The position numbers were made by a program, and so were the translations under genes. The notes under the pieces are model-generated. The model had not been told where the DNA came from, ran no database searches, and was given only the letters and a program-made list of their open reading frames with translations. Below, in pieces: positions 10,703 through 42,434 of a DNA stretch of 42,434 nt. This stretch comes from Prochlorococcus sp. AG-409-L14. GTDB taxonomy: Bacteria > Cyanobacteriota > Cyanobacteriia > PCC-6307 > Cyanobiaceae. Positions within the stretch are counted from its first letter, which is position 1, and each line of letters starts with the position of its first letter. Location: positions 1-42,434 of the forward strand of contig QCKF01000012.1 of the NCBI GenBank assembly GCA_003215545.1, in the 5' to 3' direction.

Positions 10703-11033
10703 GTCCAGGAAGATTAAGATTTAATCCACCAGTTAATTCTTCCATGCGATCTTTCATAGTGGTTGTTGAAAGATTGTAAGCATTTTGAAGTGCTTCCAGT
10801 GTTTTTTCTTCTATTATTTCTTTATTCTTTTGTAGAAGAGATGGATCCAATTCAACTTTTAAAGGTTGTTGGTTTCCAGAAAGCCAGATGCTTGCCAGGC
10901 CATCTTCACTACTACCTTTTATTTCCATTGCTTCAAGCTCTTCTTGTAGCTTTTGAGCATCTTGCTGAATTTGTTGAGCTTTTCTAAAAGCTTCGGTTAG
11001 TTGACCGAAATTAGGAAGTCCGAACGCTGCCAT
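10686..11033 (-). CDS. YbaB/EbfC-family nucleoid-associated protein
   Basis: 115 residues; a small DNA-binding protein of the YbaB/EbfC family, usually a dimer that coats DNA. The N-terminal helix [20 protein letters not shown] and the following strand-helix part with LDPSLL and the conserved C-terminal coil are typical. ATG start at 11033. It lies 36 bases downstream of murB on the same strand and its 3' end overlaps rsgA. In many bacteria the gene sits with recR/dnaX; here it follows the mur genes. Confidence 0.92.
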
Positions 11034-11069
11034 AACTTGATTTAACGAAACTGCACCTTAAACGGTTGC

Positions 11070-11960
11070 TTAGAAACCAAGCTGTTTGACTTCTGTTTGG
11101 AGCTCTAGATCATGTGTTTTCTTTACCCTTCTTTGCACTAGTTGTATTAGTTGTTTGATGTCGGCTGCAGTCCCTTCACCAGTATTGATAATGAAGTTTG
11201 CATGTAGTTTCGAAATTTCTGCTCCTCCGATTGATTTTCCTTTAAGGCCCAGTCCTTCAATTATTTGACCTGCTTTGAGTGGTTCCGGATTTCGAAAGAC
11301 GCTGCCACAGCTAGGTAAATGATATGGCTGAGTGCTAGTTCTATGAATAAGGTTCTGATGAGTTATATGGGAAAGCTCCTTTTGGTCGTGACCAGGTTCA
11401 AGTAAAAATTTTGCTGATAGGACAATTAATTTTTCTTCTTGCAGCCGACTATACCTATATGAGAAATTTAGCTCTTGACTATTGATTATAAATGGATCTG
11501 TTCCAGACCTAGGCATTACTAGAACTGAATGAAGAGTTTCCTGGATTTGGCTTCCTTGGGCGCCAGCATTCATTACAGCTGCGCCGCCAACTGTACCTGG
11601 AATACCTACTGCCCATTCAAGCCCATGCAAGCCAGCTTTTGCAGCTTTTCTTGCTAAATTTGGAATAGATTCTCCAGCAAAGGCATCAATTAATCCACTT
11701 TTTTTATTGAGACTTGAACCTTGTAGTTTTCTTAGGCATATGCTTAAGCCATTAAGACCTGAGTCATTGATTAATAAATTTGATCCAGCACCAATCACAT
11801 TGCAATTTATGTTTTTTGCATTAGCCCATATCAAAAGTGTTTGTAGCTCTTTGATATTTATAGGCTCTGCGAGAAATTCCGCGGGTCCACCAATACGCCA
11901 TGTAGTTAGATTAGCTAATTTATGAGATTGGTGTATTTTGATTCCTTGTATGCAGGTCAT
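11070..11960 (-). CDS. murB: UDP-N-acetylenolpyruvoylglucosamine reductase
   Basis: FAD enzyme that reduces the enolpyruvyl group to give UDP-N-acetylmuramate in peptidoglycan synthesis. 296 residues, the short type lacking the E. coli extra loop. Seen: [32 protein letters not shown] (FAD pyrophosphate binding), [19 protein letters not shown], and [10 protein letters not shown], whose Ser is the proton donor position. Starts within the last 4 bases of murC (ATGA overlap), a classic coupling. Confidence 0.97.
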
Positions 11961-13438
11961 GCCACTAGTTTGGGATCAAAAGAATTTGTTTGATCGTTAA
12001 GTTTTTGCCAAAGACAATTTATATCTCCTGCCCCCATTAATAGAATGAGATCATCTTTAAATGTTTTTTCCTTAGTCAACTTAATCAAATCATTTAGATT
12101 TTGAGCAACTAATACTTCCAAATCTGGATTGATATTTTTAATTTGCCTAGATAAAGCGACACTATTTGCTCCTTCTATATATTTTTCACCGGCTGGATAT
12201 ACAGGGGCTAATAAGACACAATCTGCATCACTAAATGATTTGCTAAATGCATTCATAAATTTTTTCGTTCTTGTATATCTGTGAGGTTGAAATACAACCA
12301 CAAGTCTATCTGGACAGCTTGGCAGGTCTGTTTTTTTGCTATTTATCATTAATCTTGCCATCGATAGTGTCTCTCGTATTTCTGTTGGATGATGAGCGTA
12401 ATCATCTACAATATGCCTGCCTTTCCATGTTCCACGGTAGTCGAATCGACGACCTGGACACTTGATTCTTTTAATATGATTTTGCAATTCCCTAAAGGAT
12501 ATCCCGTGAATTCTACATGCTGCAATTGCAGCAGTTGTATTGCTTAGATTATGCAATCCTGGTAAAGGAATAGATATTTTACCAACATAATTTCCCTTCT
12601 CAAAAAAATTGGCAATTGTTTGACTCCCATCTATCGAAACTGGTATGGCAGCAAAATCAACTTTTTCTGACATTTTGATGGACCACCAAGCATCAGGATT
12701 AAAATATCTTTGTAGAATAGGGCAATCATAATTCGCTATTATTAGTTTAGATTGATTGCAAAATATTTGAAATGTTTGAATCATATGCTCTAAGTTTTTG
12801 TAAAAATCTATGTGATCCAGTTCCAGATTTGTTATTAAACCTATCGAAGGGTGAAATTTTACTAAGGTTCCGTCTGATTCATCTGCTTCAGCTACGAGTA
12901 GTGCAGCAGAGCCAGAGTGTGCGTTTGAGTTGTAGTGGGGAACTAGTCCCCCTATCACAGCTGTAGGGTCTTTCTGAGCCAAAGCCAGCATTGTTGTGAT
13001 GATTGTGCTGGTAGTTGTTTTTCCGTGCGTTCCTGCGACGACTATGGCCTCTTGTTCTTGAATTAATGCTGCGAGTAAGTCAGATCGGTGCCAGATTTCG
13101 ATTTGTGCTTGTTTTGTGGCGATTAGTTCAGGGTTATTAGGGTCAATAGCTGAACTCAGAACTACAAGAGGCTTTCTGCCATTTGTAAGAGTGCGAATGC
13201 TTTCAATATTTTCAGCAGTTTGGGAAAAGAATATTCTTGCTCCTTTGGAAATTAATTTTTGCAGGTTTGCTTTTTTTTGCTGATCTGATCCTGAAACCGA
13301 GAATCCTCGATCTAAGAGAATCAACGCCAAACCAGACATGCCTACGCCACCAATGCCTATGAAGTGCACATGTCGATCGATGTTGATCAAGTTTCGACTT
13401 GAGAGCGCTAGAGGCTTGAAGATAGGCCAGGCTGCCAT
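11957..13438 (-). CDS. murC: UDP-N-acetylmuramate-L-alanine ligase
   Basis: Adds L-Ala to UDP-MurNAc, the first peptide-stem step. 493 residues in three domains: an N-terminal UDP-binding part with [14 protein letters not shown], the ATP-binding [11 protein letters not shown] loop near residue 114, EADESDGT and [10 protein letters not shown], and a C-terminal part with FDYRG and [10 protein letters not shown]. Upstream partner of murB with a 4-base overlap. It diverges from gap2 across about 160 bases. Confidence 0.97.
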
Positions 13439-19862: not shown

Positions 19863-20012
19863 ATGATGGATAGTGAAAGGAAATGGATTTTTGTACTTGC
19901 CATAACTCTTTCGACTATGGCATTTGCAAGCATTCTTGCTCCAGAAAAACCTCAACAATTGGCATCTATTTGTCAAAAGCACAACCCTGAAATTGTTTGC
20001 CAAGTATGGTGA
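19863..20012 (+). CDS. Small single-span membrane or exported protein
   Basis: About 49 residues from the ATG at 19863 (a second ATG follows at once, and AGGA sits 2-5 bases upstream). A charged start (MMDSERK) is followed by a hydrophobic stretch WIFVLAITLSTMAFASIL and a short tail ending ICQKHNPEIVCQVW with two Cys. The frame is open further upstream to ATGs at 19758 and 19710, which would add a poorly folded-looking N terminus overlapping the epimerase start. The Cys-x-His...Cys-x-x-W ending resembles small conserved picocyanobacterial proteins I have seen, but I do not know a function. Confidence 0.6.
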   Translation: MMDSERKWIFVLAITLSTMAFASILAPEKPQQLASICQKHNPEIVCQVW

Positions 20013-20017
20013 ATTTC

Positions 20018-20419
20018 TTAGGCAGCTTGAAATGTCCAATCCTGTTCTTGGCTTTTAATTGCTTTTTTATCAGTATTTGGTTTTGCCCATTCAAGCAATC
20101 TTAAAGCTAGGCGAAGATCTCCATCCACCCAAGCTCTAATTGCCATAGCTCTTCTAGGGTCATAGAAGCGTTGTTGTCTATACCAATCAAAAACCTCTTC
20201 ATCAGATTTACGTCCATTACAACTCAGGCATGCAGGAACACAGTTCTCTGTAACACTTAAACCTCCACGGCTGAGAGGTTTTATGTGATCAATAGATTCA
20301 GATGGTTTTCCACAATATATGCAACTTTGTCCAGTGGATTTATGCAGTGACTGTCGCCATCTTCTAACACGTAGTTTTGGGCATAGATCTTCGAGAAAAA
20401 CCGCGTCCCTGGTGTGCAT
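20018..20419 (-). CDS. HNH endonuclease
   Basis: 133 residues. The HNH/zinc module is clear: CIYCGKPSESIDHIKPLSRG, then TENCVPACLSCNGRKSDE, giving two CxxC pairs, the metal-activating His in DHI and the Asn of the central helix. The N terminus (RDAVFLEDLCPKLRVRRWRQ) is basic and may bind DNA. Its cellular target is unknown; close relatives appear widely in picocyanobacteria as stand-alone genes. It diverges from a SNF2 helicase gene across 169 bases, and ends 5 bases from the tail-to-tail small membrane protein gene. Confidence 0.9.
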   Translation of the reverse strand: MHTRDAVFLEDLCPKLRVRRWRQSLHKSTGQSCIYCGKPSESIDHIKPLSRGGLSVTENCVPACLSCNGRKSDEEVFDWYRQQRFYDPRRAMAIRAWVDGDLRLALRLLEWAKPNTDKKAIKSQEQDWTFQAA

Positions 20420-20523
20420 CAGAGTGCTTGATTTTTTCTAGTCTGCCGTGTTCGGTCTTCTAGTCAATGAATAAATGGATTGTTTTTTGTTTTCTCTCAA
20501 TTTCCTTGCTTGAACTCAGAAAC

Positions 20524-20547
20524 ACATTAGTTTTTAAAGCCTAATGT
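20524..20547. promoter_or_regulatory. Inverted repeat between HNH and helicase genes
   Basis: ACATTAG (20524-20530) and CTAATGT (20541-20547) form a perfect 7-base inverted repeat with a 10-base spacer, centred between the divergent HNH nuclease and SNF2 helicase genes. The geometry fits a dimer operator controlling both; a hairpin is the alternative. No flanking promoter boxes were convincing. Confidence 0.35.
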
Positions 20548-20588
20548 TTTGAGTTGGGCCCAAGCCGCTGAATTTTTCTAGCTGCTAT

Positions 20589-22154
20589 ATGGATTTAAGC
20601 CCTTCGGGCTTGGTCAATATTTTTTTCCCTTTTGATGCGGTAACACATTCAAAACTTCGTAGTATCCGCCCTAAGGGTTTCTGGTGCAGTGCTTCAAGGG
20701 CATGGGAATTTCCTTTCTCTTCAATAGATTCCTTAATTGAGCAACTTGGCTCTCGCTTTGTAATTGGTGATGATTTGTCTGAATGGCTGAATTGGAGCAA
20801 GGTCCCCTTGCCTCCTTTGCCTTCTTATCAAACATTGAGTGAAAATTCCAATTTCAATCGCCCTTTGATGGACGGAAGGATTCCTTTTGAACACCAATGT
20901 TCTGGTGCTAGTTGGTTATTGACTAAGCGCCGAGCTTTGCTCAGTGATGAGATGGGTTTAGGCAAAACGTTAACAGCACTTCTTGCCGCTAAAGCAATTG
21001 TTGAGTTCGTCAAGATAAATGTGATTGTGATTGCTCCCTCAATAGTTCATTCGCATTGGAAAAAAGAGGCTAGCGCAGTGGGATTATCAATTGCATTAAA
21101 TAGTTGGGCATCTATACCGCGTAATTTGCCTGGGGAAGGATCTTTAGTAATTGTTGATGAGGCGCATTTCGCAAAGTCTCTTTCTACAAAGCGCTCTCAA
21201 GCAATGCTGAGATTATCTCGTCATCCTCGCTTGCAAATAATATGGATGCTTTCAGGAACACCTATTAAGAATGGACGTCCTAAAGAGTTGTTTCCTCTCT
21301 TGGCAGCTATGGATCATCCAATAGCCGTTAATCAAAGTTTTTATGAAAATAATTTCTGTAAATCCCATCTAAGAAATAATTCTTTGAGCGATAATCAAGG
21401 TGCATCAAATTTGGAGGAATTGCAAAAATCAATTAATACTTTAATGTTAAATCGATGTAAGAAACAAATATTAAATCTACCTGAAAAATCCCGAAAAAAT
21501 CACATTGTTTTACTTGATTCCAATGCAGAAAAAGGTTTTAACCATCGTTTGGAACTAGTTATCGATGATTATCAAGATCGAGCTAAAAGAGGATTAGTTA
21601 GGTCAGAAGCAGAGCCTTTGGCTGTAATGACAGCCTTGAGACAAATAACTGCAGAGTTTAAACTTCCTGCAGTTTCTAAAGTCCTGAAAGGACTTATAAA
21701 GAAAGAGGAATCAGTTCTTTTATTTAGTTGTTTTATTCAACCGTTGGAGATGTTAAATGTTTATCTAGGAGGCTCTTTAATTACTGGTCGACAGACCTTG
21801 AAGGAGAGAGAACTCTCTATTGCTAAATTTCAAGCTGGTCAAGTACCTTTGCTGTTAGCTACTTATGGTGTCGCAGGGCTCGGGCTTTCATTGCATAAAG
21901 CAAGTAATGTTGTTTTGTTAGAAAGGCCTTGGACTCCTGGTGAAGTATCTCAAGCAGAGGATAGGTGTCATAGGATAGGCATGCAAAAAGTATTGACTTC
22001 GCATTGGTTTCAATTAGGTTTTGCGGATCAACTTGTTGATTCTATAGTAGCTAGTAAGGCTGAGAATATAGAGTTAATTATGAGGCAAAAGTCAGTTGTA
22101 CTAAAAAGAGATACTTTGCCAAAGATGGTTTCTAGTTTTCTTCAAAGTATTTAG
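20589..22154 (+). CDS. SNF2-family helicase with HARP-like N terminus
   Basis: 521 residues, small for SNF2 proteins. Residues about 10-60 (FPFDAVTHSKLRSI then CSASRAWEFPFSSIDSLIEQL) resemble the HARP repeat of SMARCAL1-type annealing helicases: a short strand, LRSI-turn, then R-x-WEFP. Motor motifs follow: I DEMGLGKTLTALL, II VDEAH, III LSGTPIKNGRPKE, V YGVAGLGLSLH, VI QAEDRCHRIGMQ. The ATG at 20589 is used. A 6-base GC stem lies at codons 4-8. The family assignment is firm; the annealing-helicase-like role in fork or repair work is inference. Divergent from the HNH gene. Confidence 0.9.
   Translation: MDLSPSGLVNIFFPFDAVTHSKLRSIRPKGFWCSASRAWEFPFSSIDSLIEQLGSRFVIGDDLSEWLNWSKVPLPPLPSYQTLSENSNFNRPLMDGRIPFEHQCSGASWLLTKRRALLSDEMGLGKTLTALLAAKAIVEFVKINVIVIAPSIVHSHWKKEASAVGLSIALNSWASIPRNLPGEGSLVIVDEAHFAKSLSTKRSQAMLRLSRHPRLQIIWMLSGTPIKNGRPKELFPLLAAMDHPIAVNQSFYENNFCKSHLRNNSLSDNQGASNLEELQKSINTLMLNRCKKQILNLPEKSRKNHIVLLDSNAEKGFNHRLELVIDDYQDRAKRGLVRSEAEPLAVMTALRQITAEFKLPAVSKVLKGLIKKEESVLLFSCFIQPLEMLNVYLGGSLITGRQTLKERELSIAKFQAGQVPLLLATYGVAGLGLSLHKASNVVLLERPWTPGEVSQAEDRCHRIGMQKVLTSHWFQLGFADQLVDSIVASKAENIELIMRQKSVVLKRDTLPKMVSSFLQSI
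20597..20611 (+). promoter_or_regulatory. GC-rich hairpin just inside helicase start
   Basis: AAGCCC-TTC-GGGCTT is a perfect 6-base stem starting 8 bases after the A of the ATG. A run of seven Ts follows 9 bases later. It looks like an intrinsic-terminator stem but lies in the coding region; it could hinder initiation or attenuate transcription. Confidence 0.35.
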
Positions 22155-40377: not shown

Positions 40378-42434
40378 TTAATAATTGGCTAAGTGAACAA
40401 GCTTGCGTAGTTCACTTATGTCTAAACTTCCAAGCCAGTTTTCTCCTGACCCGATGATATCTTCTGCAAGTTTTGATTTTTCTCGAATCATTTGGTCAAT
40501 CTTTTCTTCAACAGATCCACTGGTTATAAATTTGTGAACCATGACTCGGTTTGTTTGTCCAATTCGGTAAGCACGGTCTGTTGCTTGGTTCTCGACAGCC
40601 GGATTCCACCAACGGTCAATATGAAAAACATGACTGGCTCGTGTCAAATTTAGGCCAATTCCACCTGCTTTTAGTGAGAGTAGGAAAATCTGTGGGCCAC
40701 GTGGATCTTCTTGGAACCTATCTACCATTGCCTGCCGCTCTTTTTTTGTTGTGCTTCCATATAGAAAAGGCACCTCAAAGCACCATTTTTGCTCTAGGAA
40801 TTGTTTGAGTAAATTGCCCCATTCTGCGAATTGTGTAAAGAGCAATGCCCGATCACCTGCTTCGATAACTTCTTCGAGAATTTCCTCAAGACGTTGTAGC
40901 TTTGCAGATCTATTAACAAATTCATGATCAATTTTCTCTTCTTTCAGTACTAGAGCTGGATGATTACAAATTTGCTTCAGACGAGTTAGAAGTGCCAATA
41001 CTTTTCCCTGACGTTGACCGGTTGGGGAGGTGGCAATTGAATCCAAAGTATTCTCAACAGTTTTTTGATACAAAAATCTTTGCTCTTTACTTAGGCCGAC
41101 CCATTCACTAAGTTCAACTTTTTCTGGTAAATCTGAGATAATAGCTTTGTCAGTTTTGAGCCGACGAAGAATGAACGGACTTACTCTTGATTTTAGATCT
41201 TTCAAAGAAGATATGTCTCCATATCTCTCTATAGGTAGTCGATAACGTTGACGAAAGAATTCTTCTTCTCCCAGCACCCTTGGATTTAGAAAATCCATTA
41301 ATGCCCATAATTCACTTATACGGTTTTCTACGGGTGTTCCTGTTAACGCTATTCTGAAGCGACTATTTTTAATGCGTTTAGCTATTTCACGTGTCGCTTG
41401 ACTTTGTTTGGCACTTGAGTTTTTAATTGCTTGAGCTTCATCAATTACTATTCCTTGCCAGTCAATAGTTTCTAAGACTTCGATATCTCGTTGTAGAAGT
41501 CCATAACTTGTTAGGACTAGATCTATTCTTTTGACTGATTTTTCAAGGGTTGATGGAGTGGAGGGACGTTTAGGTCCATAATGCTCACTTACTTTTAAAT
41601 CTGGAGTAAAAGCTTTTGCTTCTCTCCTCCAATTTGTTAGTACAGATGTTGGAGCAATTAGTAATACTGGACGTTTTAATTCTTGCTCGGCTTTTAAATG
41701 TTGTAAGAAAGCAAGTAATTGTATGGTTTTTCCAAGCCCCATATCATCCGCTAGACATGCTCCTTGGTCAAATCTATGCAAGAAAGCTAACCACCCTAAT
41801 CCTCTTTCTTGATAAGGTCTTAGTTGACCAATAAACCCTTCAGGTGCAGCAAGTGGGTCAGGGGCTTTTTGTTGATGGTATTGCTGTAAGACACCTTGAA
41901 GTCTTGGTCCAGCTTGAAAGCAATGTATTGGGAGGCGCATTAGCATGTCGCCGGATGTAGAAGTTAGGCGTAGTGCATCATCAAGGCTGAGTTCTGGATT
42001 GTTACTACAAAATTTCTCGGCATTTTTTAAATCGTTTGGCCTTAATTCGATCCAAGCACCTTTATGGAGGACTAATGGACTGCGTTTTTGCGCTAATCGC
42101 TCTAGTTCATGTAGAGTTAAAGTAACTCCACCAATCATTAGCTCCCAACTCCAATCAAGATTTTCTCCCAGAGTTAAGCCTCTTGAATTTTTAGGTAACT
42201 CAGCCTTGATAGCGATACCAAGTCGACTTGCTAGGCCACCCGAGAGGCTTGGAGGTAGTTCGACGCCTACTCCAATACTACGTAGTTGATATGTTGCTGT
42301 TCTTACTAAAACAAAAGCTTCTGCAGGGGTAAGTTGCATCGACACTGGTGTGGCATTATTCAGTCCTCTCTCAAGAGCATCGAAAACATTTAAGGCTCGA
42401 CCTAATCCTTCTAAAAGTACTTCGCCAGGATGTT
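40378..42434 (-). CDS. SNF2/HepA-family helicase (5' end outside window)
   Basis: Large SNF2 ATPase; the frame is open to the window's right edge with no stop beyond the internal start-like GTG at 42345, so the N terminus lies outside. About 685 residues are visible. A poorly conserved N-terminal part precedes the motor: LADDMGLGKTIQLLAFL (I), IDEAQAIKN (II, DEAQ form), LTGTPVENRISELWALMDF (III), LSLKAGGIGLNLTRASHVF (V) and QATDRAYRIGQ (VI). Typical of bacterial HepA/RapA-like remodelers that work with a SWIM protein. Unlike the 521-residue SNF2 protein at 20.6 kb, it has no HARP-like part in the visible sequence. Confidence 0.93.
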   Translation of the reverse strand, partial: HPGEVLLEGLGRALNVFDALERGLNNATPVSMQLTPAEAFVLVRTATYQLRSIGVGVELPPSLSGGLASRLGIAIKAELPKNSRGLTLGENLDWSWELMIGGVTLTLHELERLAQKRSPLVLHKGAWIELRPNDLKNAEKFCSNNPELSLDDALRLTSTSGDMLMRLPIHCFQAGPRLQGVLQQYHQQKAPDPLAAPEGFIGQLRPYQERGLGWLAFLHRFDQGACLADDMGLGKTIQLLAFLQHLKAEQELKRPVLLIAPTSVLTNWRREAKAFTPDLKVSEHYGPKRPSTPSTLEKSVKRIDLVLTSYGLLQRDIEVLETIDWQGIVIDEAQAIKNSSAKQSQATREIAKRIKNSRFRIALTGTPVENRISELWALMDFLNPRVLGEEEFFRQRYRLPIERYGDISSLKDLKSRVSPFILRRLKTDKAIISDLPEKVELSEWVGLSKEQRFLYQKTVENTLDSIATSPTGQRQGKVLALLTRLKQICNHPALVLKEEKIDHEFVNRSAKLQRLEEILEEVIEAGDRALLFTQFAEWGNLLKQFLEQKWCFEVPFLYGSTTKKERQAMVDRFQEDPRGPQIFLLSLKAGGIGLNLTRASHVFHIDRWWNPAVENQATDRAYRIGQTNRVMVHKFITSGSVEEKIDQMIREKSKLAEDIIGSGENWLGSLDISELRKLVHLANY

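Follow-up and report, generated by a model that had tools for sequence, protein, structure and literature searches.

The HNH and SNF2 genes

The window, which is the whole stretch of DNA analysed here, covers 42,434 nucleotides of a contig of Prochlorococcus sp. AG-409-L14. It carries an HNH endonuclease gene (P0001, 133 aa) at 20018..20419 on the minus strand and a compact SNF2-family ATPase gene (P0002, 521 aa) at 20589..22154 on the plus strand. The two genes diverge from an intergenic region of 169 bases (20420..20588). The genome is of Prochlorococcus type, with Prochlorococcus single cells making up many of its nearest relatives in the named collection. Both open reading frames had been described in an earlier note made from the sequence alone, and both are genuine genes with profile matches and intact motifs. 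P0001 matched PF01844 with 44.1 bits (cut-off 21.4), while P0002 matched SNF2-rel_dom (PF00176) with 90 bits and Helicase_C (PF00271) with 48 bits, both above cut-off. A literature search found no description of, or experiment on, either gene.

The 7-base inverted repeat that was pointed out between the two genes is present (ACATTAG at 20524 and CTAATGT at 20541) and is the single one in the 169 bases. But dinucleotide shuffling of the region gave at least one such repeat in 284 of 1000 cases, and neither strand folded better than shuffles (z about -0.6). The repeat is therefore at chance level and has no evidential weight, and its use as an operator was rejected. Scans of the intergenic region for promoters, terminators and Rfam families gave nothing exceeding chance. 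A terminator-like hairpin, TTAAGCCCTTCGGGCTTGG, followed by a T-rich stretch lies at 20595-20613 on the plus strand, within the first SNF2 codons; the number of terminator-like matches around this region was not above that of shuffled sequence.

The SNF2 motor and its relatives

The two-lobe SNF2 motor occupies residues about 100-490 of P0002 (20886..22058, plus strand), as judged from Pfam, the alignment and an AlphaFold2 model. Walker A (GLGKT), DEAH, SGTP and QAEDRCHRIG (motif VI) are intact and are essentially invariant in 31 aligned sequences. The model of the full protein had a pLDDT of 86.6, and its top fold matches in the PDB were eukaryotic SNF2 ATPases.

Outside the family Cyanobiaceae, the motor is most closely related to proteins encoded by plasmids of Microcystis NIES-88 (p1-NIES88), Synechococcus PCC 7502 and Nostoc (pNOS7524.01), with 32-36% identity, and by Thermus phage MN1 and viral contigs of IMG/VR, with 25-36% identity. 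These HARP-like SNF2 helicases of plasmids and phages (PHROG 62) are homologous with P0002, and several IMG/VR matches as well as the Microcystis and PCC 7502 ones extend to about its residue 9. They differ in that they belong to mobile elements and are mostly larger (about 520-790 aa). They also differ in having no HNH gene nearby: motif search of the fetched flanks found none at 80 viral motor loci and none at the four plasmid or phage motor loci examined. On pNOS7524.01, a short HNH protein is annotated by NCBI about 6 kb from the motor, and it was not flagged by the motif search. Among about 213 genomes of the class outside Cyanobiaceae, only one had an SNF2 ortholog, and this was on a 63-kb replicon matching the plasmid of Synechococcus PCC 7502 in length and position. 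On that plasmid, the SNF2 homolog lies a few kb from apparent type I restriction genes and a ParA-like gene (L091:5265-8411 and 10928-12943).

The N-terminal domain of P0002

The earlier note had suggested that the N-terminus of P0002 looks like a HARP repeat. Pfam HARP (PF07443) did not match P0002, its first 96 residues or 30 homologs, and a PDB search with the profile of picocyanobacterial N-termini (A3) gave nothing significant. The viral SNF2 homologs of IMG/VR, however, align with P0002 from about residue 9, and six of the nine that were scanned matched PF07443 with E-values of 8e-5 to 6e-3 (16-23 bits, under the 25-bit cut-off). A profile of 13 viral SNF2 N-termini (A4) had as its best PDB match 4O66, the HARP structure of SMARCAL1, with an E-value of 2.4e-4. 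This viral profile aligned with A3 in hhalign with 95.9% probability over 66 columns. P0002 itself scored 20.7 bits against A4, compared with 10.3 bits for the top of 20000 shuffled sequences. Compared directly with the HARP segment of 4O66, A3 was no better than shuffles. The N-terminal domain modelled in isolation had a pLDDT of 87.6, and Foldseek with this model gave no significant PDB match; 4O66 was not listed, and three XPB entries were under the threshold.

We call the domain (residues 1-68; 20589..20792, plus strand) HARP-like because it is connected with HARP by a two-step profile chain through the viral homologs, while direct matches are absent. By these profile comparisons it is a diverged HARP-like domain reached via intermediates and not HARP by definition, and the similarity appears real but remote. 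Thus the likeness seen by the earlier note is retained at the level of profiles, although neither a direct Pfam match nor the fold search confirmed it. By leading from viral SNF2 proteins to the HARP domain of SMARCAL1, this chain also connects the helicases of phages and plasmids with eukaryotic fork remodellers.

The HNH protein

The HNH core of P0001 spans residues 33-74 (20198..20323, minus strand; CxxC, DH, N, CxxCN), and was delimited by the Pfam match and by invariant columns of alignment A2. This alignment contains 25 HNH homologs with 60-80% identity, in which the zinc cysteines C33, C36, C64 and C67 as well as D44-H45, N59 and N68 are invariant. The core is followed by a conserved C-terminal extension at residues 75-111 (20087..20197, minus strand; WYRxQxFYDPRRAMAIRAW...LLxW), which is near-invariant in the same alignment, with most of WYRxQxFYDPRR invariant too. 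The best solved relative of P0001 is 4H9D, a Geobacter HNH nickase that has the same HNH core. The rest of the C-terminus (20018-20086, minus strand) is a variable linker followed, in nearly all of the proteins, by a short conserved tail: W..QAA or, in another group, WRWQMA(A/S). This tail is reminiscent of a degradation tag or a binding motif.

The nearest relatives of P0001 found outside the family are free-standing HNH proteins of cyanophages (S-EIV1, S-CBS2, ACG-2014f). They share the P0001-type core and, up to about residue 102, also the C-terminal extension, with about 34-44% identity. These phage copies are located among structural and other phage genes, with no SNF2 gene in the fetched flank. 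Elsewhere in the class, outside Cyanobiaceae, HNH matches did not go beyond the generic core. An HNH gene of Prochlorococcus, PMM1528, was reported to be UV-induced (PMC2921402). We did not identify it with the P0001 gene; its locus number suggests a different HNH gene.

Conservation of the locus in Cyanobiaceae

Among 251 Cyanobiaceae genomes, many of them incomplete, 166 had both orthologs, 53 had HNH only, two had SNF2 only and 30 had neither. A motor gene without HNH was thus seen in two of 168 genomes, and both cases are doubtful, one being fragmentary. G183, a single-cell genome with the motor but no HNH, was set aside: an assembly artefact or a local deletion is probable because the SDR match starts where the SNF2 gene starts.

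The side-by-side arrangement from which the earlier note had started was found across the family, in marine as well as freshwater picocyanobacteria. Both genes are adjacent in 79 of 80 named loci and always divergent, with a median gap of 188 bases (range 86-292). But gene order is likewise conserved family-wide throughout the surrounding block, which comprises about 15 genes (gap-thiL-cyp-efp-accB-pdxA-SDR-HNH-SNF2-hyp-agt-cbiD-guaA). Because this entire block keeps its order, the adjacency of HNH and SNF2 alone says little, and we did not use it by itself as functional evidence. The two genes might even be unrelated, separately acquired and neighbours merely through the stability of the block. 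The conserved order from gap to guaA would agree with such a history, and so would the different elements in which the nearest outside relatives reside, cyanophages for HNH and plasmids and other phages for SNF2.

The block also bears on whether the pair is a domesticated anti-phage or restriction module, with motor and nuclease acting against invading DNA like helicase-nuclease defence systems. P0002 gave generic matches to ZorD, DpdE and DrmD, and P0001 gave weak matches to PDC-M01B and PtuB. All of these, however, fall on the shared motor or HNH cores, and the NCBIfam ones are far under the curated cut-offs. Defence genes are typically found in patchy islands, whereas most genomes of the family have these two genes within a housekeeping block, accompanied by no methylase or other partner. 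We consider a defence role very improbable.

A conserved gene for a microprotein of 49 aa (19863..20012, plus strand) converges on the HNH gene. A single hydrophobic stretch and, towards the C-terminus, the motif SICxxHNxxxxCxVW characterise the protein, which matched no Pfam family. Of 115 loci, 105 have it no more than 500 bp from the HNH 3' end, usually at 0-10 bases, and the loci that lost SNF2 are among them. Small Prochlorococcus genomes of genus g18 have one or two extra paralogs of the P0001-type HNH elsewhere in the chromosome, about 56-71% identical. Examples are L108:7356-7757 and L109:7979-8320 (G151), and similar genomes have them too. Some of the matches contain in-frame stops, and the microprotein was absent beside the paralogs in both loci checked.

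The HNH gene after loss of the motor

In a large group of Prochlorococcus (genera g4, g11, g17, g18, g39 and g56), the SNF2 gene alone is missing. The gap from HNH to the next gene is 80-300 bases in this group, and in two further genomes (L292 and L294) it is longer, at 562 and 868 bases. The catalytic residues of HNH are retained in these lineages.

A crude first comparison had indicated relaxed selection on HNH after the loss of the motor (0.85 vs 0.54), a difference that vanished in the final comparison. There, with SNF2-bearing Prochlorococcus as control and a common core alignment, the divergence of HNH relative to four control genes was 0.51 without the motor (n=19) and 0.47 with it (n=22). 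Since HNH is intact and its constraint is unchanged, the nuclease remains useful without the motor. The retention, which mostly reflects one main loss event, argues against an obligate two-subunit enzyme.

Joint absence of the pair

In other lineages both genes are missing from the same site. In genus g9 the SDR and lipoprotein genes directly adjoin, and both HNH and SNF2 are missing there. In the genus g49 genome G048 (L320), the microprotein and SDR are present, and HNH and SNF2 are absent. G025 is nested among marine Synechococcus, and there too the SDR gene adjoins the lipoprotein gene and the pair is missing. Trees were made by FastTree and rooted with other cyanobacteria. Those of guaA and of guaA+argH placed g9 and g49 outside the clade that bears the pair (support 0.86 and 0.79), and the corresponding node, on which the case for a joint gain depends, was not recovered with argH only.

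Because these early-branching members lack both genes and the nested G025 lost both, the pair may have come as one unit. The HNH and SNF2 genes probably reached the picocyanobacterial chromosome as a pair, at a single site that has the SDR/microprotein genes on one side and the lipoprotein gene on the other. G025 would be a later joint loss, which fits this reading, and g9 and g49 may alternatively represent joint losses as well. A link between HNH and SNF2 is favoured by their near restriction to the family, by their shared slot, and by the fact that early-branching lineages and a single nested genome lack the two together. Independent histories in a stable block would predict neither that g9, g49 and G025 all lack both genes at the same slot nor that the motor alone in an intact neighbourhood was found in no genome of the family. 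We therefore regard mere synteny of unrelated genes as possible but rather unlikely.

Comparison with ZRANB3

The earlier note had interpreted the pair as a two-gene counterpart of the vertebrate protein ZRANB3 (AH2). ZRANB3 likewise combines a HARP-like SNF2 motor with a C4-zinc HNH domain related to 4H9D, and the closest structural relatives of its HNH domain are T4 endonuclease VII and 4H9D (PMC5481773). However, ZRANB3 is a single fused protein with the HNH domain C-terminal to the motor, while here all 79 named loci with both genes have them separate and divergent. ZRANB3 also has a helical insert in its HNH domain, and deleting this ZRANB3-specific insert abolishes its nuclease activity (PMC5481773). 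P0001 has an unbroken Pfam core of 42 aa, with no room for the insert because there are just 7 residues between C36 and D44. No Pfam family of the NZF zinc finger, another feature of ZRANB3, was found in P0001 or P0002 at E-values up to 10. In addition, ZRANB3 carries the PCNA-binding motifs PIP and APIM; bacteria are not known to have PCNA. The HNH and SNF2 parts are cousins of the ZRANB3 parts, and the pair is not ZRANB3.

In a split machine of this type, HNH and motor would bind each other, and ATP-driven remodelling would license structure-specific nicking by HNH at stalled forks. The partial match of domains (HARP-like, SNF2 and C4-zinc HNH), the shared relative 4H9D, the one shared slot with its joint absences, and the near lack of motors without HNH agree with it. 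But HNH without a detected motor in 53 genomes, with its constraint unchanged where the motor was lost, does not, nor do the viral, plasmid and phage motor loci without HNH or the short spacing between C36 and D44. We judge such a machine improbable. The same holds, to a slightly greater degree, for a version in which the pair was acquired as a unit and forms a two-subunit, ATP-dependent, structure-specific nuclease for stalled forks, with several Prochlorococcus having dropped the motor and reused the nuclease. If true, a split counterpart of ZRANB3 would be something most picocyanobacteria rely on. HNH and SNF2 are not shown to be one machine, because lineages that lost the motor keep the nuclease unchanged. 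Of the earlier interpretation, the HARP-like similarity and the family-wide adjacency stand, and the step to a two-gene module modelled on ZRANB3 is not supported, in view of the synteny of the block, the losses of SNF2 only, the unchanged HNH constraint, the viral and plasmid motors without HNH and the absence of the insert.

Proposed roles of the two proteins

The explanation we favour, with a probability of about 0.55, is that a HARP-like SNF2 translocase has been domesticated and lies next to an HNH nuclease that works autonomously. P0002 would be a chromosomally fixed member of the compact SNF2 double-strand-DNA translocases with a HARP-like N-terminus that are borne by plasmids and phages. 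It shares the architecture of its distant relative SMARCAL1 (HARP), a human annealing helicase of fork repair, with a compact SNF2 motor directly after the HARP-like domain, and a HARP domain plus motor is reported to be enough for annealing helicase activity (PMC4035279). By analogy with SMARCAL1, the most likely activity of P0002 is ATP-driven re-annealing or branch migration of strands where DNA is stalled or branched, and the HARP-like domain may recognise the branch. The analogy has its differences, since the HARP likeness of P0002 is detectable via viral intermediates only and there is no partner like RPA, which is eukaryotic. P0001, judged by its family membership, would be a zinc HNH nuclease that stands alone and probably acts as a nickase, nicking DNA on its own account. 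The pair probably entered the chromosome together, and HNH would then have been independent of the motor, as it is retained with unchanged constraint where the motor was lost.

Picocyanobacteria are phototrophs that abound in the sea, and a SMARCAL1-like motor present as a fixed gene in the majority of them but given up by many Prochlorococcus would be a concrete difference in the handling of stalled replication.

The window also encodes a further SNF2 protein at 40378-42345 on the minus strand, 18 kb off and near the contig end. It is larger than P0002, belongs to the SCO1167/SCO6262 type and has DUF3670. Its start is possibly cut, and orthologs of about 1050 aa are present in most Cyanobiaceae genomes looked at.
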